Assembly: GCF_002776575.1 (NCBI RefSeq)
Contig: NZ_CP022548.1
Coordinates: forward strand, 3,549,001 to 3,613,000
DNA length: 64,000 nucleotides
Direction: 5' to 3'
Origin: Sphingorhabdus sp. YGSMI21
GTDB taxonomy: Bacteria; Pseudomonadota; Alphaproteobacteria; Sphingomonadales; Sphingomonadaceae
The notes under the pieces: model-generated
Told to the model about the DNA's origin: nothing
The model's database searches: none
What the model saw: only the letters and a program-made list of their open reading frames with translations
Translations under genes and position numbers: made by a program
Part shown: positions 25,410 to 36,087 of the stretch, piece after piece
Layout: every line of letters starts with the position of its first letter
How positions within the stretch are numbered: position 1 is the first letter of the stretch

Positions 25410-25486
25410 CGGGAAGTAGCTCAGCCTGGTAGAGTACTGCCTTCGGGAGGCAGGGGCCGGAGGTTCGAATCCTCTCTTCCCGACCA
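25410..25486 (+). tRNA. tRNA-Pro (CGG)
   Basis: 77-base cloverleaf with encoded CCA. The acceptor starts CGGGAAG and ends CTTCCCG-A-CCA. The D-arm is AGCTCAGCCTGGTAGAG. The anticodon stem CTGCC/GGCAG surrounds TTCGGGA, giving anticodon CGG at 25444-25446. The T-arm is GGAGGTTCGAATCCTC. It stands alone, divergent from thyA. Confidence 0.96.
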
Positions 25487-25789: not shown

Positions 25790-27949
25790 ATGAGCACGCG
25801 TGTTTTAATAGTCGATGACCGGCCTACCAATCTGCGGATCTACGCCCAGTTTGTGACGCTGATGGGGGAAAAATATTCCGCCGTCACCTATGCTGATCCT
25901 GTGGAAGCGCTGGATTGGCTGCGCGACAACAAGGCGGATCTGATGGTGGTGGATTACCGGATGCCGCAAATGAACGGCGCGGAATTCATCCGCAAGGTCA
26001 GGCTGATGCCTGGCGCTAATGAAATTCCAGCGATCGTCATTACAGCGCATCAGGATCGCGAATGCCGGCTTGCCGCACTGGACGCTGGCGCCACCGACTT
26101 TTTGCAGAGCCCGGTTTCGCATGTCGAATTCTGTAGCCGTGCCTTGTCCCTGCTGACCAAAAGCAAGAAAAGCGTGACCCTGCGCAAGCGCGCCTCGGAA
26201 ATCGGCCGGAAGCACGCAGCCTTTGGCGCGGCGGCCTCGAACGAAGGTCCGTCAGGCAAAAGCATGCTCGAGCAAATCATCGACACGATCCCGATCATGA
26301 TCAATGCGACCGACCGGTCGGGAAAATGCCTGTTCACCAACGCCTATCAGTCCGCCCTGTTTGACAAGGACCCGGACGAGATGGTCGGCACCGATTTTGC
26401 CAATAATTTCGAGCCGACCCTGGCAGCAAATACGCGCAGACGGGATGCGATGGTGCTGAAATCGAGCCTGGCCATTCCGCATTTCGAAGAGAAAATCACC
26501 AGCGACGGTGTCGATCTGATTTTCCATTGCAACAAGTCGCCGCTACTCAATCACAAAGGCGAGACGATCGGCGTGCTGACAACAGCGGTCGATATCACTG
26601 CCCGGAAGTTCGCCGAGGAACATAGAACGCATCTCGCACTGCACGACATGCTGACCGGCCTGCCCAATCGCGTGCTGCTCGCCGAGAATGTCAAATCGAC
26701 CATCGCCAATTGCAAGAAAGCCGATAGCCAGGCTGCGCTTTTGCTGCTCGATCTGGACCGGTTCAAGATCATCAATGACACCCGCGGCCATCACAGCGGC
26801 GACGCGCTGTTGCGCGAGGTCGCCGAACGCATTTCCAAGGTCATTGGCCCCGAGGATTTTGCCGCCCGCATCGGCGGGGACGAATTTGCGATCATTTTGA
26901 ACAAATTCGAGAATATCGACTCGATCAATTCGCGCTGTTCCAAAATATTGAAATCAATCAGCGAGCCCTATGCCATCAGCGGTGTGGGTCAGGTGATCAG
27001 CGCGTCAATCGGCGTCAGCCTGATCCCGAACGACGGCGATGAATATGAGGAAGTTCTCCGCATGGCCGATCTCGCCATGTATGACGCCAAGGCCAATGGC
27101 CGCAACTGCTACCGGTTCTTCTCGGAAGACATGAACGAGATTGCCCAGGCCGATGCCGCGCTGGAAAACGAGCTTCGCGACGCGTTTAACGAAAATCAGT
27201 TCGCGCTCGAATATCAGCCGATTGTCGATGCAAAAACACTCGAATATGTTGGCCTGGAAGCGCTTATCAGATGGGATCATCCACGCCGCGGCCGCCTGTT
27301 GCCGATCCAGTTCATCCGGGTCGCAGATGAAAGCGGACTCATGGACATTCTCGGCCGCTGGGTCATGGGTGAAGTTTGCCGGGAAATAAAATCCTACGCC
27401 GACCGCGGTATTGATCTGCCACGCGTCGCGATCAACGTATCCCCGCGCCAGTTCCAGAACCAGAATCTCTGCCAGGAACTGCTCGCCAATATCGAAGCCA
27501 ATGGCATCGAACCATCAAAAATCACGATCGAGATTACCGAAGAATTGCTGATCGACAATAATGAGCAGGTCAGAGCCACGCTCCAGCAGATTCGCAACAG
27601 CGGTGTCGGCATATCCATCGACGATTTCGGAACCGGCTATTCCTCGCTGCAATATCTCAGGGATCTGCCCGCCAATTGCCTGAAAATTGATCGCACGTTC
27701 ATTTCCCGGATCGAACATAGCCCGGCCGATCGCGCGATTATCGGCACCATTGCGCATCTGGCGCATGCACTGGACATGCGGGTGGTTGCCGAAGGCGTCG
27801 AAAATGACGCGCAGCTGGATTTGCTCCGCGTTTCCGGTTGCGACGAAATCCAGGGTTTCAAGATCGCGCGTCCGCAACGGGCCGAGGATCTCGGAAAATT
27901 ATTTGACGGCCGAAAAAATAATCCCGCCAGTCGTGCGGTAGAAGGCTAA
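25790..27949 (+). CDS. Response regulator with PAS, GGDEF and EAL domains
   Basis: 719 residues. Domain order: receiver (1-120, phospho-acceptor D55 in MVVDYRMPQMNG), PAS (about 160-275), GGDEF (motif RIGGDEFAII near residue 362) and EAL (GLEALIRW near 490, with DDFGTGYSSL and KIDRTFI). Both cyclic-di-GMP motifs are intact, so it could make or break the messenger. The receiver lacks the usual lysine: the segment reads DFLQSPVS, with serine at 107. The ATG at 25790 is chosen over an upstream GTG. It is immediately followed by an RpfC-like kinase and is its likely phosphorelay target, taking the place of RpfG in the Xanthomonas system. Confidence 0.93.
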   Translation: MSTRVLIVDDRPTNLRIYAQFVTLMGEKYSAVTYADPVEALDWLRDNKADLMVVDYRMPQMNGAEFIRKVRLMPGANEIPAIVITAHQDRECRLAALDAGATDFLQSPVSHVEFCSRALSLLTKSKKSVTLRKRASEIGRKHAAFGAAASNEGPSGKSMLEQIIDTIPIMINATDRSGKCLFTNAYQSALFDKDPDEMVGTDFANNFEPTLAANTRRRDAMVLKSSLAIPHFEEKITSDGVDLIFHCNKSPLLNHKGETIGVLTTAVDITARKFAEEHRTHLALHDMLTGLPNRVLLAENVKSTIANCKKADSQAALLLLDLDRFKIINDTRGHHSGDALLREVAERISKVIGPEDFAARIGGDEFAIILNKFENIDSINSRCSKILKSISEPYAISGVGQVISASIGVSLIPNDGDEYEEVLRMADLAMYDAKANGRNCYRFFSEDMNEIAQADAALENELRDAFNENQFALEYQPIVDAKTLEYVGLEALIRWDHPRRGRLLPIQFIRVADESGLMDILGRWVMGEVCREIKSYADRGIDLPRVAINVSPRQFQNQNLCQELLANIEANGIEPSKITIEITEELLIDNNEQVRATLQQIRNSGVGISIDDFGTGYSSLQYLRDLPANCLKIDRTFISRIEHSPADRAIIGTIAHLAHALDMRVVAEGVENDAQLDLLRVSGCDEIQGFKIARPQRAEDLGKLFDGRKNNPASRAVEG

Positions 27950-28002
27950 TCCACTTGCTGTCCGCCACATCAAAAGCGCCGGCACGGTCGCACAGGCATC
28001 AC

Positions 28003-30510
28003 ATGCATTCAAAGCACGGCTTGGATGGACAGATACGTGATCGCGAGCACGAGATGATCAAGAACCGGATCATCCTGGTCATTCTGGGATGGTCGGTCTG
28101 TGTCATGCTGGGTGCCACACCAGGCCTCATCGTCGGTTTCAGCGTCTATTTCATCCTCAGTGTCGCCATTGCCGTCGCCTATCGGATGCACCGAAAACCC
28201 TCAAGCTTGAGGCGTTTTCTCGGGCTTTGCACGGACTTTGGCGTCGGAGCCTTCCTGTTTCAGGTCGGAGGAGAAAGCGTCGCGGCGGGATATCCGCTTT
28301 TTCTCTGGGTCATTCTCGGCAATGGCTTCCGCTTCGGCATTTTCTGGCTGTTCATAGCGTCCGTGATGGCCGCGATGGCGTTTGGCTGGGCCATCTATAC
28401 CGTGGACTTCTGGCGGAACAACTCATCCCTTTCGATCGGCCTGCTGATCGGGCTGCTGGTGATCCCGGCCTATTGCTCGACGCTGATCACCAAGATATCC
28501 CAGGCGAAAGAAGAGGCCGAAGCTGCCAACAAAGCCAAGAGCCTGTTTCTCGCCAGCATTAGCCATGAATTGCGCACCCCGTTGAATGCCATCATCGGTT
28601 ATGGCACGCACCTGCTGGAAATGCAGCTGCCGGAAAAACAGCACCAGATGATCGCGACCAGCGTATCCGCCGGACGCCACCTGCTCCACCTGATCAACCA
28701 GCTGCTGAATTTCGCCCAGTCGGAATCGCGGGATGAGCTGCCCGATCCGAAACCCTTTTCTCTCGTCGATCTTCTTTCCGAGGTCCGCGACATCATGCAG
28801 ATCGCCGCCGACGACAAGGGCCTGGAGATCAACCTGCAGGCCGAACCGAGCAGCAACCAGCTGATCTCGGGCCAACTGGATTACGTTCGCAACATCCTTA
28901 TCAACCTGACCAGTAACGCGGTGAAATTCACCAATTCCGGTTCGGTTACCTTGCGCTGCGGATTTGTATCCACAGCTGGTCAGGACGAAATGTGGGTTTC
29001 CGTAACCGACACCGGACCCGGCATTGCGAAAGAAGAGCAGCAGAAAATATTCGACGTCTTCCAGCAGGCAAATGACACGATTGCGAACGAATTTGGCGGT
29101 ACCGGTCTGGGACTGGCGATCTGCCAAAAGCTTGCCAATCAAATGGGTGGCGATATTTCCCTGGAGAGCGATCCGGGGAAAGGCAGTATTTTCACCCTGT
29201 CCTTCCCGGTCGATGTCCTTGAGGCGGAACCCCAAAGCAGTGACGACGACGCCATCCGTATCCTGTCTCTCTCCCAGAAGATCGACGCACCGAGCATCTG
29301 CAAGGACAAGAACCAGCCCGTCAGGATTGATCATATCCAGTGCTACGGGCCAGATGATATCGAAGAGATTATCAGTCAGCTCGATCTCGATCTCTACGAC
29401 ATTGCCCTGCTGGACGAGGCCATTGCGAGCAATCAGGACGACCAGTCCCCTCTCTGGTCTGCGTTCCGCGCAGCCCAGCTGCCCCCGGTTTTGCTGGCCG
29501 AGGGCAAGGAGAAAACACTCAAGGACATCCAGTTGCGCGCCGCTTTCGCCACTCTGCTTCCGCCAGGATCGGAGTTCAGCGCGATCCGCAGCGCCGTGCA
29601 AATTGGCTGTTCCTTTGTCGGGTCCGGCCCGCGGCAACATCCGGAATCCACGCCGAACATCGAGCCAGCCCAGGTCAAACCGGTTCGCGTGCTGGTTGCC
29701 GATGACAATCGGACTAACCAGATGGTCCTCGAAACGATCTTGTCCAATGTCGGACACGAGGTCACCGTGGTGGCTGACGGAGAGGAAGCGCTCGAACAGC
29801 TCGAACAGGGGGATTTCGAAATTGTCTTCCTGGATGTGAACATGCCAATCATGGGTGGTATCGAATGCTGCCGCCTGTGGCGCCAGATCGAAGGGCCGCG
29901 GAAACATGTCCCGATCATCGGCTTGACGGCGGATTCGACCGAGGAAACCGAAAAGAAATGTCTCGATGCCGGCATGGACCTGAGAATTACCAAGCCGATC
30001 GAAGCCACCGAACTGATAGAGGTTATCACCTCCCAGACGGGCAGCAGGACCGAAGCACAAGCCGTTGACACATATGCGGACCCGCTGGGCGTGGTCAGCA
30101 GTTTCGACAGCAAATTGCGGCGGCCCGAGCCACCGGCCGTTGATCCGACGCAGCTCGATTATCTGCTGTCGATCGGTGACGAAGCCTTTGTCAGATCAAT
30201 CATCGAAGCCTATCTGGAGGATACCGGCGAGATCCTCGTTGCCTTCCGCAAATCGGTCGAGGATGGATCTGTCGATGATTTCCGTTTTCACGCCCATGCC
30301 TTCAAGAGCGGCGCCTCCAATGTCGGCGCAAGCTATCTCGTCGAGACATGCTCTAAGCTGGAGGTGATTGCCGAACCGGACTTTCTGGAGAGACGTCAGG
30401 AATATCTGTCCAAGATTGAACAGCAGGTCGCTGATATTCGCGCCTATCTTGATACGAAGCTGGCTGCCGGTACCGAGCATGCGCAGGCCGGACAGGCCGC
30501 ACAAATCTAG
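28003..30510 (+). CDS. rpfC: RpfC-like hybrid sensor histidine kinase
   Basis: About 835 residues: short N-terminal segment ending DREHEMIKNR, about five membrane helices (to roughly residue 165), HisKA (H188 in SISHELRTPLN), HATPase (NLTSNAVKFT, TDTGPGIA, GGTGLGLAI), a receiver (D611 in VFLDVNMPIMGG), and a C-terminal Hpt domain (H765 in AHAFKSGASN). This is the architecture of RpfC, the DSF receptor, including a short pre-membrane sensor segment rather than a large periplasmic domain. The ATG at 28003 (AGG seven bases upstream) is used; the frame opens at a TTG at 27955. It ends seven bases from the convergent rpfF-like gene. Confidence 0.9.
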   Translation: MHSKHGLDGQIRDREHEMIKNRIILVILGWSVCVMLGATPGLIVGFSVYFILSVAIAVAYRMHRKPSSLRRFLGLCTDFGVGAFLFQVGGESVAAGYPLFLWVILGNGFRFGIFWLFIASVMAAMAFGWAIYTVDFWRNNSSLSIGLLIGLLVIPAYCSTLITKISQAKEEAEAANKAKSLFLASISHELRTPLNAIIGYGTHLLEMQLPEKQHQMIATSVSAGRHLLHLINQLLNFAQSESRDELPDPKPFSLVDLLSEVRDIMQIAADDKGLEINLQAEPSSNQLISGQLDYVRNILINLTSNAVKFTNSGSVTLRCGFVSTAGQDEMWVSVTDTGPGIAKEEQQKIFDVFQQANDTIANEFGGTGLGLAICQKLANQMGGDISLESDPGKGSIFTLSFPVDVLEAEPQSSDDDAIRILSLSQKIDAPSICKDKNQPVRIDHIQCYGPDDIEEIISQLDLDLYDIALLDEAIASNQDDQSPLWSAFRAAQLPPVLLAEGKEKTLKDIQLRAAFATLLPPGSEFSAIRSAVQIGCSFVGSGPRQHPESTPNIEPAQVKPVRVLVADDNRTNQMVLETILSNVGHEVTVVADGEEALEQLEQGDFEIVFLDVNMPIMGGIECCRLWRQIEGPRKHVPIIGLTADSTEETEKKCLDAGMDLRITKPIEATELIEVITSQTGSRTEAQAVDTYADPLGVVSSFDSKLRRPEPPAVDPTQLDYLLSIGDEAFVRSIIEAYLEDTGEILVAFRKSVEDGSVDDFRFHAHAFKSGASNVGASYLVETCSKLEVIAEPDFLERRQEYLSKIEQQVADIRAYLDTKLAAGTEHAQAGQAAQI

Positions 30511-30517
30511 CTGATTG

Positions 30518-31471
30518 TCAGACCGCCCGTAGCGACCGCAATATGCGCCGATCCTGCGCCGATGCCAGCCGCTCCATCTTGCGAACGTCCGCATCTCCCA
30601 GATAGAGTGCGGTTTCCGCCCAAGTATCGGTGATTTCGAGCAATTCTTCCAGACTTACCGGGTTGGCGATTTTCCGGGCCCGATAGACGGCCCTTTCGGC
30701 GTGAAAGCGTTTGCGGTTTTCCTTGGTATATTCGACGATTGCGGCTTCGCCCATTCCGTCGTCCGCCAGGATATCCACCACGCCCATGTCATAAAGTTCG
30801 GCGCCAGTGTATAATTTCCCTTCGAGAATGAACCGCTCGGTTTCCTTCCGGCTGAGACGCTGACGCAGGAAACTATAGGCCCCCATTCCGGGAAAGAGAT
30901 TGAAGAGAATTTCCGGCAATCCCAGTCGCGCGCTTTTCTCGGCCACCAATATGTCGAACGCCAGGGCGTGTTCAAAACCGCCGCCCAGAGCATCACCCTG
31001 CACGAGGGCCATTGTGATGATCGGTGCGCCAAAGGCGGTGCTATTCTCATATTGCATATGGACACAGGTCCGGGCGTATTTTTTCAACGCGCCGAGGTCG
31101 CGACGACGGATGCAATCCGCAAAATGCTTCAGATCACCGCCCAGATTGTAGATGCCGGGCGTATGCGAAGCGGCGACAAAATAGCGCAACGGATCGGCCG
31201 CCTTGGTCCCGTTGATCGCGTAGGTGGAATGGATCCAGTCCTGAACCTGCTGAATTTCCTCGCCCAGTTCATAGGTATAACTGGGGCGCGATTTCTGGTT
31301 CATATAGCACCAGAATATTTCGTCGGACCGGTCGAATCTCAGGTCGATTTCGCGAAACTGTTTGGAGAAGATATCGGGTTCGGAAATAGGGGGCGTCTGG
31401 ACCAGCATATCATTCGCCTCGATCGTCAAATTACGATCCAACTCGTTGGCTGCGCGACTGCGAAAGTCCAT
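30518..31471 (-). CDS. rpfF: RpfF-like DSF synthase (enoyl-CoA hydratase family)
   Basis: 317-residue crotonase-fold protein. It matches RpfF, which makes the cis-2-unsaturated fatty acid signal DSF by dehydration and thioester cleavage. The diagnostic stretch contains ALVQGDALGGGFE and GLPEILFNLFPGMGAYS, with two glutamates 20 residues apart, the spacing of the catalytic pair in Xanthomonas RpfF. The oxyanion segment is YNLGGDLKHF. The ATG at 31471 has GGAG six bases upstream and is preferred over two upstream starts. Convergent with rpfC, as in Xanthomonas. No rpfB-like gene is adjacent. Confidence 0.9.
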   Translation of the reverse strand: MDFRSRAANELDRNLTIEANDMLVQTPPISEPDIFSKQFREIDLRFDRSDEIFWCYMNQKSRPSYTYELGEEIQQVQDWIHSTYAINGTKAADPLRYFVAASHTPGIYNLGGDLKHFADCIRRRDLGALKKYARTCVHMQYENSTAFGAPIITMALVQGDALGGGFEHALAFDILVAEKSARLGLPEILFNLFPGMGAYSFLRQRLSRKETERFILEGKLYTGAELYDMGVVDILADDGMGEAAIVEYTKENRKRFHAERAVYRARKIANPVSLEELLEITDTWAETALYLGDADVRKMERLASAQDRRILRSLRAV

Positions 31472-31757: not shown

Positions 31758-32759
31758 TCAACCCGCGTCGGATTCTGCTCCGGCAGATTGGTTGACCAGT
31801 CCACGAAAGGCGCGAACGGCAGACCGGTTGCCCTTGGTGACTTCGAAAACATCCTCCGCGATCGGCATTTCGACCCCGTATTTTTTTGCCAATGCGATCA
31901 CCGTCGGCGCGCTTTTCACACCCTCCGCGACCATGTGCATTTCGTCGATGATTTCGTCGATATGACGACCCTTGCCAAGCTCGACGCCGACGTGGCGGTT
32001 ACGGCTCAGCGGACTGGTGCAAGTGGCGATCATGTCCCCCATGCCGGTGAGACCAGAGAATGTTTCGGGTTTGCCGCCCATGGCAACGCCTAGCCGCGTG
32101 ATTTCGGCAAGCCCTCTGGTGATCAGAGCCGAACGCGTATTGTCGCCGGCTCCCAGCCCATCGCCCATACCGACAGCGATGGCTATGATATTCTTGAGCA
32201 CCCCGCCCAATTCGCAACCCAGCAGGTCGGTATTGGTGTAAACGCGGAACAGGCCGGAGTGGAAAAGCTGCTGCAGCTGTTTGACGATAATCTCATCTTC
32301 CATCGAGATCACACTGGCGGCCGCCTGCCCCGCCATGATTTCACGAGCCAGATTGGGGCCGGTCAAGACGCCGACCGGATGCCCCGGCAGAACTTCTTCG
32401 ATCACCTCTGTCATCCGCTTGCTGGTCGCCAGTTCCAGTCCCTTGGTAAGGCTGATGACCGGAACCCAGGGCCTCAAATATTGCTTCGCCTCTTCGAGTA
32501 CCGCGCGAAAATTGTTGGAGGGTATCCCCATCACCAAGACATCTGCGCCTGACACGGCCTCGCCGATTTCCGACGTTGCGGTCAAAGCAGGTGGCAATTT
32601 TATGTCGGGCAGATATTTGCTGTTGCAATGATTATTGTTGATATCGCTGACGGTTTCGGAATCGCGCGCCCAGATTTTTATCGGCGCGTTGCGCGAAACC
32701 AGCGACGCAACCGTGGTTCCCCAAGAGCCGCCGCCGAGCAATCCAACTTTCAATTCCAT
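31758..32759 (-). CDS. gpsA: Glycerol-3-phosphate dehydrogenase (NAD(P)+)
   Basis: Reduces dihydroxyacetone phosphate to sn-glycerol-3-phosphate, the backbone for phospholipid and triacylglycerol. 333 residues; the Rossmann loop is LLGGGSWGTTVA, followed by SLTKGLE, LTGPNLAREI and the catalytic-domain LGGVLKNIIAIAVGMGDGLGAGDN with the conserved lysine. It is the last gene of a minus-strand run of lipid genes, 61 bases after an alpha/beta hydrolase gene, supplying the first precursor of the pathway encoded upstream. Confidence 0.96.
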   Translation of the reverse strand: MELKVGLLGGGSWGTTVASLVSRNAPIKIWARDSETVSDINNNHCNSKYLPDIKLPPALTATSEIGEAVSGADVLVMGIPSNNFRAVLEEAKQYLRPWVPVISLTKGLELATSKRMTEVIEEVLPGHPVGVLTGPNLAREIMAGQAAASVISMEDEIIVKQLQQLFHSGLFRVYTNTDLLGCELGGVLKNIIAIAVGMGDGLGAGDNTRSALITRGLAEITRLGVAMGGKPETFSGLTGMGDMIATCTSPLSRNRHVGVELGKGRHIDEIIDEMHMVAEGVKSAPTVIALAKKYGVEMPIAEDVFEVTKGNRSAVRAFRGLVNQSAGAESDAG

Positions 32760-32820
32760 ATATACCCTCCGTCGGCGACTCCTCTAGCGGGAGCCCATCC
32801 TGTCTAAACTGAAGGGAATT

Positions 32821-33759
32821 TCAGTATTTTGCAAGAAACTCGAGATGCCGCTTCGCGGTACCCTTCGGGTTTTCGATCATGGGGATATGACCCACTTCCT
32901 CAAAGACCACGGATTCGGCATTGGGAATTCCGTTTTCCAGCACATCGACACAGCTGACGTCAATCAACTGGTCGTGACGGCCCCAGATGATGAGTGTCGG
33001 TGCCTTTACCTGCCCGAGCTGGTCATTCAGCGGCTTTGCGGTACCATCTTCGACCAGAGTCCAGAAAATCTTGTCGAGCAGTTCGCGATGGACAGCGAAA
33101 TCCTCGTAGAAAATCTTGCGAAACTTTCCGGGGACTTTCATCGGCTTGTGGGCGACAAAGGCGAGCATCCGTTTCACATCTTCCGGACTGTGGATTTCCA
33201 GCGGATTTTTGCCCGACTGGGCCTCTTTTTGCAGCTTGCTTTCATTGGCACCAATGACGCCGGCATTGTTGAACAGCGTCATGGACAGCAATCGCTCGGG
33301 ATAATCCAAGGCAAAGCGCAGGGAGACGAAACCGCCCATACTGTTGCCGCCGATATGGCATTTTTCTATTCCCATGGCGTCCAGAAAGTCGCGGACCCGC
33401 GCAGCCTGGGTCGCCATGTCGTAATCATGGGCGATATCGCGAATATTCTCGCCAAATCCCGGAAGGTCCGGCGCTATCAGGCGGTATTTTCCGACGATTT
33501 CCGGTGCATATATTGCCCAGTTATCCTTGTCTCCGCCAAAGCCGTGCAGAAGAACCAGAGGCTCACCATCAGCCGGCCCCCCTTCGAGATAGGGCCAGAT
33601 AAGATTGCCCACTTTGATAGACTTTGCTGTCAGCTTGCCTTTTCTTCGCAAACCGTTGCGCAGGAAGCCGTATAGAGTACGCGGGAACAGCACATAGAGC
33701 GCCAGCAGCGACACCATCAAGATGCCGAGTACGGTCAGAAAAATTTCAACTGCTTCCAT
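32821..33759 (-). CDS. Membrane-anchored alpha/beta hydrolase
   Basis: 312 residues. The N-terminal helix IFLTVLGILMVSLLALYVLF probably anchors it in the inner membrane. The fold shows the oxyanion segment LLHGFGGDKDNW, nucleophile elbow GNSMGG, acid in IWGRHDQLID and histidine in EEVGHIPMIE: a complete Ser-Asp-His triad. It is likely an esterase or lipase acting on acylglycerols or acyl esters, from its location between a monoacylglycerol-lipase-like gene (1-base gap) and gpsA. The exact substrate is unknown. Confidence 0.88.
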   Translation of the reverse strand: MEAVEIFLTVLGILMVSLLALYVLFPRTLYGFLRNGLRRKGKLTAKSIKVGNLIWPYLEGGPADGEPLVLLHGFGGDKDNWAIYAPEIVGKYRLIAPDLPGFGENIRDIAHDYDMATQAARVRDFLDAMGIEKCHIGGNSMGGFVSLRFALDYPERLLSMTLFNNAGVIGANESKLQKEAQSGKNPLEIHSPEDVKRMLAFVAHKPMKVPGKFRKIFYEDFAVHRELLDKIFWTLVEDGTAKPLNDQLGQVKAPTLIIWGRHDQLIDVSCVDVLENGIPNAESVVFEEVGHIPMIENPKGTAKRHLEFLAKY

Positions 33760-33760
33760 G

Positions 33761-34624
33761 TTACGCTCCTCCCGCCGCCAGCTGTTTGTCCAACCAGTCG
33801 GTCATGTCGTTCAGAACGTTGTCTCTTTCCGGTTCATTGAAAATTTCGTGAAACAGTTCAGGATAGATTTTCAGCTGTTTCTCGCTCGAGGAAATATGGC
33901 GAACCAGAAATTCCGAACCTGCCACCCCGGCCAGACTGTCCTGTCCTCCGTGAAGCAGTAGCATGGGCAAGGAAATTCGTCCGGCATTCTCCTGGACCAT
34001 GGTCATATTGGCAAGCATCTCTGCTGCAAGCCTTGCCCCCATCTTGCCATTGTAGACAAGCGGATCGGCGAGATAGTCGGCTACAACCTCCGGATCGCGA
34101 CTGACGCCGTTCGGGTCGAGCTCGAGCACACCGAGCTTGGGAAAGAAGCGCGACAGAAAGCCGCTGATCGCCTTGAGCGCTGCGGATGGTTCCTCGGCCG
34201 CCTGGATCGCCGGGCCGGAAAGCACGCAGGCAGCGAAATTTCCCTGTTCGGTGAGTAGATAGGTCGCGCTGATCAATCCGCCCATACTGTGCCCGACAAG
34301 CATGACTGGCAAATCGGATAAATCCTGCTTCGCCTGGGCGAGCAGCCGATCAACACCGTCCCTGAAAACCGAAAAATCGGGAACAAAACCGGCTGTGCCA
34401 TCCGATTTCCCATGCCCCCAGTGATCCAAAGCAAAAACCGCATAGCCTTTGCCCACGCAATGCTCGGCAAAATATTGATAGCGCCCACTATGCTCGGCAT
34501 AACCGTGCACTAGCAAAATGATCGCCTTGGGATCATTGTCCGGCAACCATTTCTGCCAGAATATTTTTGCGCCGGCCGCCTTGGATCCCGGTGCAAGCGT
34601 CAATGTCCCGTTTTCATGGATCAA
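33761..34624 (-). CDS. Alpha/beta hydrolase, monoacylglycerol lipase-like
   Basis: 287 residues. It follows the lysophospholipase / monoglyceride lipase pattern: LLVHGYAEHSGRYQYFAEHCVGKGYAVFALDHWGHGKSDG, the elbow LVGHSMGG and the acid loop LLHGGQDSLAG. The final histidine is in YPELFHEIFNEPER, typical of that family. Hydrolysis of monoacylglycerol to glycerol and fatty acid is the expected reaction. Its ATG overlaps the patatin-gene stop by 4 bases, so the two lipases are translationally coupled. Confidence 0.88.
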   Translation of the reverse strand: MIHENGTLTLAPGSKAAGAKIFWQKWLPDNDPKAIILLVHGYAEHSGRYQYFAEHCVGKGYAVFALDHWGHGKSDGTAGFVPDFSVFRDGVDRLLAQAKQDLSDLPVMLVGHSMGGLISATYLLTEQGNFAACVLSGPAIQAAEEPSAALKAISGFLSRFFPKLGVLELDPNGVSRDPEVVADYLADPLVYNGKMGARLAAEMLANMTMVQENAGRISLPMLLLHGGQDSLAGVAGSEFLVRHISSSEKQLKIYPELFHEIFNEPERDNVLNDMTDWLDKQLAAGGA

Positions 34625-36087
34625 GCGATTTTCCTTTTCACTACCAGTTCGTGATCGTGTGCCAGCTCATTTTCATATGCGAACAATATCCGGTCAAGCG
34701 TCTGGCTGATTTTGGTCTGGGTCCGGACCATTTCAATTTTCGGCCAAGTCGTCCGCTCTCCAAGCTGGATCAATTCGGCGATATCCTCGACCGGCAAATT
34801 GCTCAGCAGCTTGGACGGGCTCCAGAACATGGTCGGGCGGATGATATTGATATCACCGGTATAATCCTGATTGATTACCGAAAGCGCCATATTCGCCATG
34901 CTGTTCAAGCGCGGAAAATAGGACAGCGGCTTCTGCATGATTTCCACATTGGCGTTGAGCCATGCCTTCATTGTCGCGGTCGAGGCGTTGCGGATTGACG
35001 AAAGCGGATTGCGCGTGTGGCTGACATCTGTCGCGAATGGCGTGACCAGCGGATTGGCCTGGCTGACGATATGGTGATTGACGCCATAAAGCCGGGCCAG
35101 TCTTTTGACCGGCAAATCGTGAGTGACCGACCCGTCGACCCATTTCCGGTTGGGCAGATAGGGAATCCGCTCGCCGCGATGGTCTTTTGCCGCCAGCGTC
35201 ACGGGCGGATAAATGCCGGGGACCGCACAGGACGCCAGAACCGCCTCGCGAATGAAGACATTGGGCGATGCAATGGCATTGAGCAGGCGCGAGGTCTGGT
35301 GTTTCTCTGCCGGGGCAATCGAGACATTCAGATGACGACCGGTAAGCTCATAGGCTTCCTGAAAGGTAAGGTCGGGCAAAAGATCCGACAGACGCTGCCG
35401 GATTTCGTCGGCCCGCATCCGGCTGGGGCCTCCCATGAAACCGCCCTCATCTTCATTTTCAGGTCCGACGATCAAATTTTCCGGTTTGAAAAATGGCGGT
35501 ATATCCTTGTCCGTGTGCGTACTGATCAGCGCACCAACGACCGATCCACCGCTGGATCCCGACATGATATCGGGCAACAGACCCTCTTCCCAGAGAGCCT
35601 TGGCCACGCCAACGTGAAAATAGAGATAGGCTCCGGAGCCGCTCATCAAAAATGCGGACCGTCCGTAGCAATGCTGCGCCCGGCGGAAGAAATCGAGTTT
35701 TTCCTCGAACGGAATGTCGGTAACCTTGTCGCTCGCCAGATATTCCAGCGAATTGGCGATCGCGTCGACATAATCCTGGATCAACTGCTTAGTACCGAAT
35801 TTGGCCTTCTGATGGAGCCGGGCGTGCCCCATGCCATCCATATTGCCGTGAATGCCCTCGTTCAAAGCATATAGTAGGCCTGCATTGTCCTGCTCTTTCC
35901 AGAGCTTGGAAAGGCGCTTCAGTCGGCGGCGGATGGAAGAGTGATCAAAATGCTTACTTTCATCTGACGCCTTCCATATGTCGACTCCGGTGGACTTGTC
36001 GTGCGCTTTCGCGGCCTTCGACCATTCGGAATAGCTTTTGGCCTGGGCCATCGCCTTTTCCATCTTCAAAGTCGTGTTCAGGATCAT
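34621..36087 (-). CDS. Patatin-like lipase with DUF3336 domain (triacylglycerol lipase type)
   Basis: 488 residues. The N-terminal DUF3336 region (about 1-140) precedes a patatin domain. In the patatin domain the nucleophile elbow is GSSGG (S179) and the catalytic aspartate is D318 in WVDGSVTHDLP; a GSGAY oxyanion loop precedes the elbow. DUF3336 plus patatin is the arrangement of yeast Tgl3/4/5 and plant SDP1 triacylglycerol lipases. In this operon, downstream of WS/DGAT, it is the likely enzyme that opens stored triacylglycerol. Confidence 0.88.
   Translation of the reverse strand: MILNTTLKMEKAMAQAKSYSEWSKAAKAHDKSTGVDIWKASDESKHFDHSSIRRRLKRLSKLWKEQDNAGLLYALNEGIHGNMDGMGHARLHQKAKFGTKQLIQDYVDAIANSLEYLASDKVTDIPFEEKLDFFRRAQHCYGRSAFLMSGSGAYLYFHVGVAKALWEEGLLPDIMSGSSGGSVVGALISTHTDKDIPPFFKPENLIVGPENEDEGGFMGGPSRMRADEIRQRLSDLLPDLTFQEAYELTGRHLNVSIAPAEKHQTSRLLNAIASPNVFIREAVLASCAVPGIYPPVTLAAKDHRGERIPYLPNRKWVDGSVTHDLPVKRLARLYGVNHHIVSQANPLVTPFATDVSHTRNPLSSIRNASTATMKAWLNANVEIMQKPLSYFPRLNSMANMALSVINQDYTGDINIIRPTMFWSPSKLLSNLPVEDIAELIQLGERTTWPKIEMVRTQTKISQTLDRILFAYENELAHDHELVVKRKIA

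Follow-up and report, generated by a model that had tools for sequence, protein, structure and literature searches.

We analyzed a 64,000-nucleotide stretch of the genome of Sphingorhabdus sp. YGSMI21 (NZ_CP022548.1, positions 3,549,001 to 3,613,000; "the window"; the whole genome is 4.06 Mb). The window contains a three-gene locus related to the rpf genes of diffusible signal factor (DSF) signaling. Three intact open reading frames (ORFs) are found there by ORF reading and Pfam: a response regulator, a hybrid histidine kinase, and an RpfF-like crotonase. The regulator occupies the slot of RpfG. Its receiver belongs to the RpfG lineage, but its output is PAS-GGDEF-EAL instead of HD-GYP. This is a real and conserved variant, in which one receiver lineage carries at least three kinds of output and the sensor has changed in the GGDEF-EAL branch; its function is deduced from anatomy and relatives. 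We think it fairly probable that the locus is a fatty-acid signaling module of the rpf type in which the output behind RpfG's receiver was exchanged. The gene order, its conservation, the ancestry of the receiver, the RpfC-type sensor domain, and the intact catalytic and relay residues were observed directly; the identity of the signal, the phosphotransfer, and the direction of the output are predicted from them.

The regulator and kinase genes lie on the + strand and nearly abut, and the rpfF-like gene lies on the - strand. The initial annotation of this DNA, made by a model from the sequence alone, described a convergent kinase-synthase pair with a 7-base gap. The distance from stop to stop is indeed exactly 7 bases.

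Conservation of the gene order

A synteny search, which had been proposed in the initial annotation, found the same three genes in many other genomes. Among 396 genomes of Sphingomonadales, 86 have a match to rpfF (E ≤1e-40). We compared the neighborhoods of all 86, and classed them by searching for domains with segments of the window's proteins as queries. Nine of the 86 (including the window's genome) have both the kinase and a REC-PAS-GGDEF-EAL regulator. Similarly, 36 of 53 named loci have the window's order (rpfF, kinase, REC-PAS-GGDEF-EAL), and 10 have REC-HD-GYP in third place. As for the other seven, five are cut by contig ends (L050, L051, L054, L080, and L097; L numbers are our labels for loci), at L094 the REC-HD-GYP gene is further out, and at L091 no kinase is seen in the remaining 1.6 kb.

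At the level of the class, rpfF matches were found in 24 of 385 genomes. In 14 of these 24 (among L239-L254), the third place is taken by a REC-PAS-HisKA-HATPase protein, with no PAS detected in L249 and L254. (With such a protein in the slot, a second histidine kinase would be the end point of the signal.) At L246, a REC-PAS-HisKA gene is on the other strand; at L238, a REC-PAS-HisKA_2 gene is divergent, and we found no kinase of the RpfC type. The rest comprise the window's own genome, three loci cut by contig ends (L243, L255, and L256), three with none of these genes (L257, L144, and L262), and one genome (G525) whose neighborhood was left out.

At the level of the phylum, 62 of 398 genomes have a match, of which we examined 24: six have HD-GYP, four have the window's order, five have a GGDEF-EAL gene directly beside rpfF, five have the kinase only, one has a kinase ORF with no detected receiver (L266), and three have none of these. 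Two of the four with the window's order (L258 and L259) are from other families.

Across 48 loci, the distances among RpfF, kinase, and receiver sequences correlate at 0.82-0.86. We do not take this as proof that the proteins function together, as shared descent alone could give the same values.

A receiver of the RpfG lineage with a different output

The Pfam domains of the regulator are Response_reg, PAS_4, GGDEF (163 bits), and EAL (237 bits). The initial annotation's claim that a REC-PAS-GGDEF-EAL protein replaces RpfG is strengthened, since the receiver is itself of the RpfG lineage. We compared it with 34 receivers from the same slot in other lineages (16 HD-GYP, 14 REC-PAS-histidine kinase, and 4 divergent REC-PAS-histidine kinase) and with 58 control receivers. 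(Half of the controls, 29, come from the window's genome and the other half from the alphaproteobacterium G508 and from G1039, which has a Xanthomonas-type rpf locus; these are the best 30 of 40 Pfam matches in the window's genome and the best 30 of 116 in the other two, minus the window's regulator and one empty row.) The window's receiver scores 77-123 bits against the slot receivers, versus 56.6 bits against the best control.

A tree of 111 receivers, which was thinned from the full set and has few columns for that many rows, separates the slot receivers from the controls (support 100/98). The alphaproteobacterial slot receivers group together (100/99) among the HD-GYP rows, and those with GGDEF-EAL outputs also group together (89/94). 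By these comparisons, the regulator's receiver is of the RpfG lineage, to which the RpfG (HD-GYP) and REC-PAS-histidine kinase receivers also belong. Because the receivers of all three types group together, one receiver lineage carries at least three outputs. With the controls as the outgroup, HD-GYP is likely to be the older state. The two alphaproteobacterial types have a PAS domain in common (17-66 bits by phmmer), so the output was most likely exchanged behind the PAS domain.

Judging from its domains, the regulator is not RpfG because it has no HD-GYP output, although its receiver is of that lineage. Nor did we find RpfG elsewhere in the genome: the only HD_5 ORF is 47.9 kb from the nearest of the 40 receiver matches. 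The sequence also indicates that the regulator is not RpfR, because it has a receiver and because its GGDEF-EAL module does not group with RpfR-type rows. We considered whether this module came from RpfR and rejected the idea. By phmmer, it scores 323.7 bits against the RpfR-type protein at L277, 341 bits against L260, and up to 297 bits against controls from its own genome, with no clear gap, and a tree keeps it apart from the RpfR-type rows L276 and L277.

The GGDEF, EAL, and other catalytic residues that we checked are intact in all 47 regulators of this type, and the inhibitory RxxD site is kept in only 5 of the 47. The PAS domain has only weak matches in the PDB by sequence profile, from which we deduced no ligand. 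PAS folds are all similar, so the rank of RpfR in a fold comparison decides nothing about the PAS ligand.

An RpfF-like synthase and an RpfC-like kinase

The synthase belongs to Pfam family ECH_1. It scores 344.3 bits against the RpfF superfamily model of NCBIfam (PRK08788), which is above the cut-off of 177. Its four best relatives in the PDB by sequence are 7zq7, 3m6m, 6dgn, and 5fus, two of which (3m6m and 6dgn) are named RpfF. These four RpfF-type structures head the list by about 107 bits, with 193 bits for 7zq7. Identity to the RpfF of 3m6m is 43.9% over 212 columns. The nearest named relative is from Sphingorhabdus sp. 109 (96%), followed by other Parasphingorhabdus and Sphingorhabdus records.

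The residues corresponding to E141 and E161, along with conserved glycines, are kept in the synthase. (These are named as functional residues of RpfF in the part of a 2022 mSystems paper that we drew on; PMC9040811.) The initial annotation had treated the two glutamates, 20 residues apart, as diagnostic. The pair is present, but its diagnostic value did not survive: at least three of seven other crotonase loci in the same genome (L011, L014, and L015) have it too by motif scan, so it does not prove that the protein is RpfF. In our judgment from the sequences, stronger evidence for RpfF identity is the score gap to ordinary crotonases and the company of the gene, and we filed the synthase as RpfF-like. 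We did not use an RpfF tree as proof of the route of descent: the group's own clade is well supported (98/98), but the backbone lacks resolution and long branches come together.

In the kinase, Pfam finds HisKA, HATPase_c, Response_reg, and Hpt, the full chain that the initial annotation had read. Its claim of a membrane domain also holds, as a search for the RpfC-type sensor matches. Of 88 kinases from rpf loci, 86 have this domain; the exceptions are L072, where the kinase is split in two frames, and L275, which has no match. Among 13 kinase ORFs from control loci, the sole match is the window's own copy. The relay residues (H, D, and H) are present in all 47 aligned kinases of the window's type. 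On this sequence evidence, the kinase is filed as RpfC-like.

As an aside, the kinase ORF at L259 (7904-12367; 1488 amino acids) has about 650 extra residues before the RpfC-type membrane domain; the true start may lie downstream of them.

A proposed pathway and the evidence against it

We propose that the RpfF-like enzyme would make a DSF-family cis-2-unsaturated fatty acid. The signal sensed by the RpfC-like membrane kinase would most likely be a fatty acid, recognized differently than by the Xanthomonas kinase. Phosphate could then pass from His204 to Asp627 to His781 and on to Asp55 of the regulator; the residues are present, and the sequences make the last transfer, from the kinase to the regulator's receiver, plausible. 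The RpfG-lineage receiver and the PAS_4 domain would together control how the GGDEF-EAL module is balanced. If RpfG and RpfR are a guide, the signal's net effect is more likely to be breakdown of cyclic-di-GMP.

Several observations weigh against this pathway. First, the sensor has lost residues that matter in Xanthomonas. In the part of Cai et al. that we relied on (PMC5391125), RpfC needs R15, D17, S18, E19, and Q22 to respond to DSF, and only Ser or Thr functions at position 18. The window's kinase has IRDREHEM here, so that D17 and E19 are kept and R15, S18 (Arg), and Q22 (Met) are not. In the 46 readable rows of the window's type, Ser/Thr18 is found in two and Gln22 in none. In the same alignment, Ser/Thr18 and Gln22 are each present in 14 of 14 kinases of the REC-PAS-histidine kinase type, and in 13 and 16 of the 16 kinases of the HD-GYP type. 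Because the window-type rows form one clade, these shared losses amount to few events. (The sensor motif does not covary perfectly with the output: L246 has Met22 and yet has the REC-PAS-HisKA gene nearby.) The short N-terminal segment that the initial annotation noted does not match the docking motif of Xanthomonas. With Ser/Thr18 and Gln22 missing, its reading of plain DSF sensing is not supported as it stands.

An alternative is that the kinase no longer senses DSF. Its His-rich N terminus would bind metal or respond to pH, the PAS domain or nothing would sense the fatty acid, and the RpfF-like enzyme would only be held and released by the kinase's receiver. Besides the lost docking residues, this idea draws on the N-terminal histidines. 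Kinases of the Parasphingorhabdus group (L048-L070, with L067 masked) have 3-12 His within at most 38 open-frame residues before the motif, versus 0-2 in the 16 HD-GYP-type and 14 histidine-kinase-type kinases; the range for kinases outside the group is 0-3 overall. (The starts are not proven; five of the N-terminal His of the window's kinase lie after its likely start.) The sequence of this stretch varies while its composition is kept, in the Parasphingorhabdus group only. Also, the DSF-binding PAS of RpfS belongs to the same Pfam family, PAS_4, according to the portion of a 2015 review that we used (PMC4504480). Against this alternative, the RpfC-type membrane domain is retained, His-rich stretches can be neutral, and the docking residues were also lost in the sister Sphingorhabdus group, whose kinases are not His-rich (0-3 His). 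We consider it unlikely.

Second, the window-type receivers keep the acidic pair, Asp55, and Thr, and the conserved Lys is replaced by Ser (45 of 47) or Thr (2 of 47). The same position is Lys in 57 of the 58 controls, and Arg (9) or Lys (7) in the 16 HD-GYP-type receivers. The change to Ser or Thr is found in all 65 alphaproteobacterial receivers of the lineage that we examined (47 EAL, 14 histidine kinase, and 4 divergent). A receiver with Ser or Thr in place of this Lys can probably still be phosphorylated, although its switch would be unusual. The receiver might instead be a platform on which RpfF or the kinase docks, with the output following the exchange of partners and not phosphate. 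The universal loss of the Lys fits this idea, as does RpfF's binding to the receiver of RpfC, with release to other receiver proteins proposed for Xylella (in the same portion of the review; PMC4504480). Yet all 65 receivers keep the acidic pair, the phospho-Asp, and the Thr/Ser, which would not be needed for docking alone, and we find the idea rather improbable.

Third, the synthase scores only 218.8 bits against the RpfF equivalog model NF053515, under its cut-off of 550. So the comparison with RpfF models that the initial annotation had suggested was borne out for the superfamily and not for the equivalog. Six of seven relatives that we scanned also fail, including the 6dgn-type RpfF at L277 (95% identical to 6dgn; 181.6 bits); only L273 (87% identical to 3m6m) passes. 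That the synthase is an ordinary enoyl-CoA hydratase in a gene set unrelated to DSF would agree with this missed cut-off and with the catalytic Glu pair of ordinary crotonases, but it is very improbable: the best other crotonase of the genome scores only 45.8 bits against the synthase, the RpfF-type structures lead the PDB list by a wide gap, and an RpfC-type kinase adjoins rpfF in those of the clade's sphingomonad loci with long enough contigs (at L072, the split kinase).

A more far-reaching scenario is speculative and, as a whole, doubtful. RpfG's receiver would have been re-fitted at least twice in the Alphaproteobacteria, once with PAS-histidine kinase and once with PAS-GGDEF-EAL. The kinase of the GGDEF-EAL branch would have lost its docking motif, and the Parasphingorhabdus group would have gained its His-rich N terminus. 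The result would be a switch with two inputs: the kinase reads a new cue (such as metal or pH), the PAS domain reads the fatty acid, and both act on one cyclic-di-GMP enzyme.

Comparison with known DSF systems

The 2015 review, in the part that we consulted, names two core DSF pathways, RpfF-RpfC-RpfG and RpfF-RpfR, and describes the rpfGHC operon of Xanthomonas as convergent with rpfF (PMC4504480). The window's gene order is neither of these pathways. It is like the Xanthomonas system in that rpfF is convergent with an operon of regulator and kinase, and in its RpfC-type sensor, its H-D-H relay, and the lineage of its receiver. It differs in the PAS-GGDEF-EAL output instead of HD-GYP, in having no rpfH in between, and in lacking both the DSF-docking residues of the kinase and the conserved Lys of the receiver. 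Like RpfF-RpfR as described there (PMC4504480), it has a cyclic-di-GMP enzyme with PAS, GGDEF, and EAL domains next to a relative of RpfF. Unlike that system, it has a receiver and a membrane kinase, and its GGDEF-EAL module falls apart from L276 and L277. With the alphaproteobacterial RpfF-RpfC-(REC-PAS-histidine kinase) loci, it shares the synthase family, the kinase type, and the receiver and PAS lineage; those loci differ in their HisKA-HATPase output and in keeping the RxDSEHxQ motif of the kinase.

We found no published name for the REC-PAS-histidine kinase rpf loci in a limited search of the open-access literature, and no study of sphingomonad rpf genes in a limited search of one open-access library. 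As far as these searches reached, the three-gene arrangement is undescribed.

The compared loci suggest that there are DSF pathways beyond the two reviewed, built by exchanging outputs behind one receiver lineage. HD-GYP, histidine kinase, and GGDEF-EAL outputs behind one receiver also form a natural series for asking how a receiver drives its output, and the GGDEF-EAL branch, having lost the docking motif, offers a direct test of what this motif recognizes. The group includes named isolates (Parasphingorhabdus marina DSM 22363, Sphingorhabdus contaminans KCTC32445, and Novosphingopyxis baekryungensis DSM 16222), so experiments are feasible.

Features of the locus and its surroundings

The features are listed in Table 1. 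The ATG starts of the regulator (25790) and of the synthase (31471) agree with the starts of their relatives. For the kinase, TTG 27955 is the most likely start: AGAAGG is just upstream, and this position is TTG, GTG, or ATG in several relatives.

Table 1. Features of the rpf-type locus, in window coordinates.
Feature	Position	Strand	Basis
Response regulator, 719 aa, REC-PAS_4-GGDEF-EAL, in the RpfG slot	25790..27949	+	Pfam; start from alignment of relatives
Receiver domain, RpfG lineage; phospho-Asp55, conserved Lys replaced by Ser107	25802..26134	+	Pfam, tree, residue alignment
PAS_4 domain, also in REC-PAS-histidine kinase proteins of other Alphaproteobacteria	26282..26608	+	Pfam, phmmer
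GGDEF domain, motif intact, inhibitory RxxD site not kept	26636..27106	+	Pfam, alignment
EAL domain, every catalytic motif residue checked intact	27167..27874	+	Pfam, alignment
AGAAGG, likely ribosome-binding site of the kinase gene, within the 3' end of the regulator gene	27940..27945	+	Sequence
RpfC-like hybrid histidine kinase, 851 aa, TTG start (most likely)	27955..30510	+	Pfam, sensor search, start comparison
N-terminal segment of the kinase: His-rich stretch, then IRDREHEM where RpfC has the DSF-docking motif RxDSEHxQ	27955..28056	+	Alignment
RpfC-type multi-helix membrane sensor domain	28045..28524	+	Domain search, alignment
HisKA domain, His204	28534..28728	+	Pfam, alignment
HATPase_c domain	28882..29214	+	Pfam
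Receiver domain of the kinase, Asp627; third PDB match is the RpfC receiver 3m6m_D	29689..30027	+	Pfam, PDB comparison
Hpt domain, His781	30199..30417	+	Pfam, alignment
RpfF-like crotonase (PRK08788 superfamily), 317 aa, Glu167/Glu187 at the positions of Xanthomonas E141/E161	30518..31471	-	Pfam, NCBIfam, PDB, alignment

A tRNA-Pro (cgg) gene is just upstream of the regulator gene (25410-25486, + strand). Upstream of rpfF, on the same strand and tightly packed (31758-36087, - strand), are genes for a glycerol-3-phosphate dehydrogenase, two alpha/beta hydrolases (one with Hydrolase_4), and a patatin-like phospholipase (with DUF3336). ORFs of similar size are also upstream of rpfF in several genomes of the same genus. 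A tie between these genes and the supply of fatty acids is only a thought.

The other rpfF-bearing Sphingomonadales have different neighborhoods. In 18 of the 86, a GGDEF-EAL gene is directly convergent with rpfF (L101, L104, L112, L168, L170-L181, L183, and L185). These loci resemble rpfF-rpfR, yet most of the modules that we sampled cluster by themselves in the tree, and the protein at L170 has no Pfam domain before GGDEF. In another 55 of the 86, we found none of these arrangements. At one such locus (L122, 7835-9016), the convergent neighbor of the orphan rpfF encodes an AFG1-like ATPase, and many of the 55 genomes have ORFs of similar size there.

In the remaining four (L165, L166, L167, and L169), rpfF lies inside a longer ORF that is divergent from a REC-PAS-histidine kinase gene, and at L165 and L166 an RpfC-type membrane kinase follows. 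At L165 (6752-8845), Pfam shows a Haem_oxygenas_2 domain (iron-containing redox enzyme) fused to the C terminus of RpfF, and this fused enzyme might modify the fatty acid. The other three have similarly long rpfF ORFs (632-682 amino acids).

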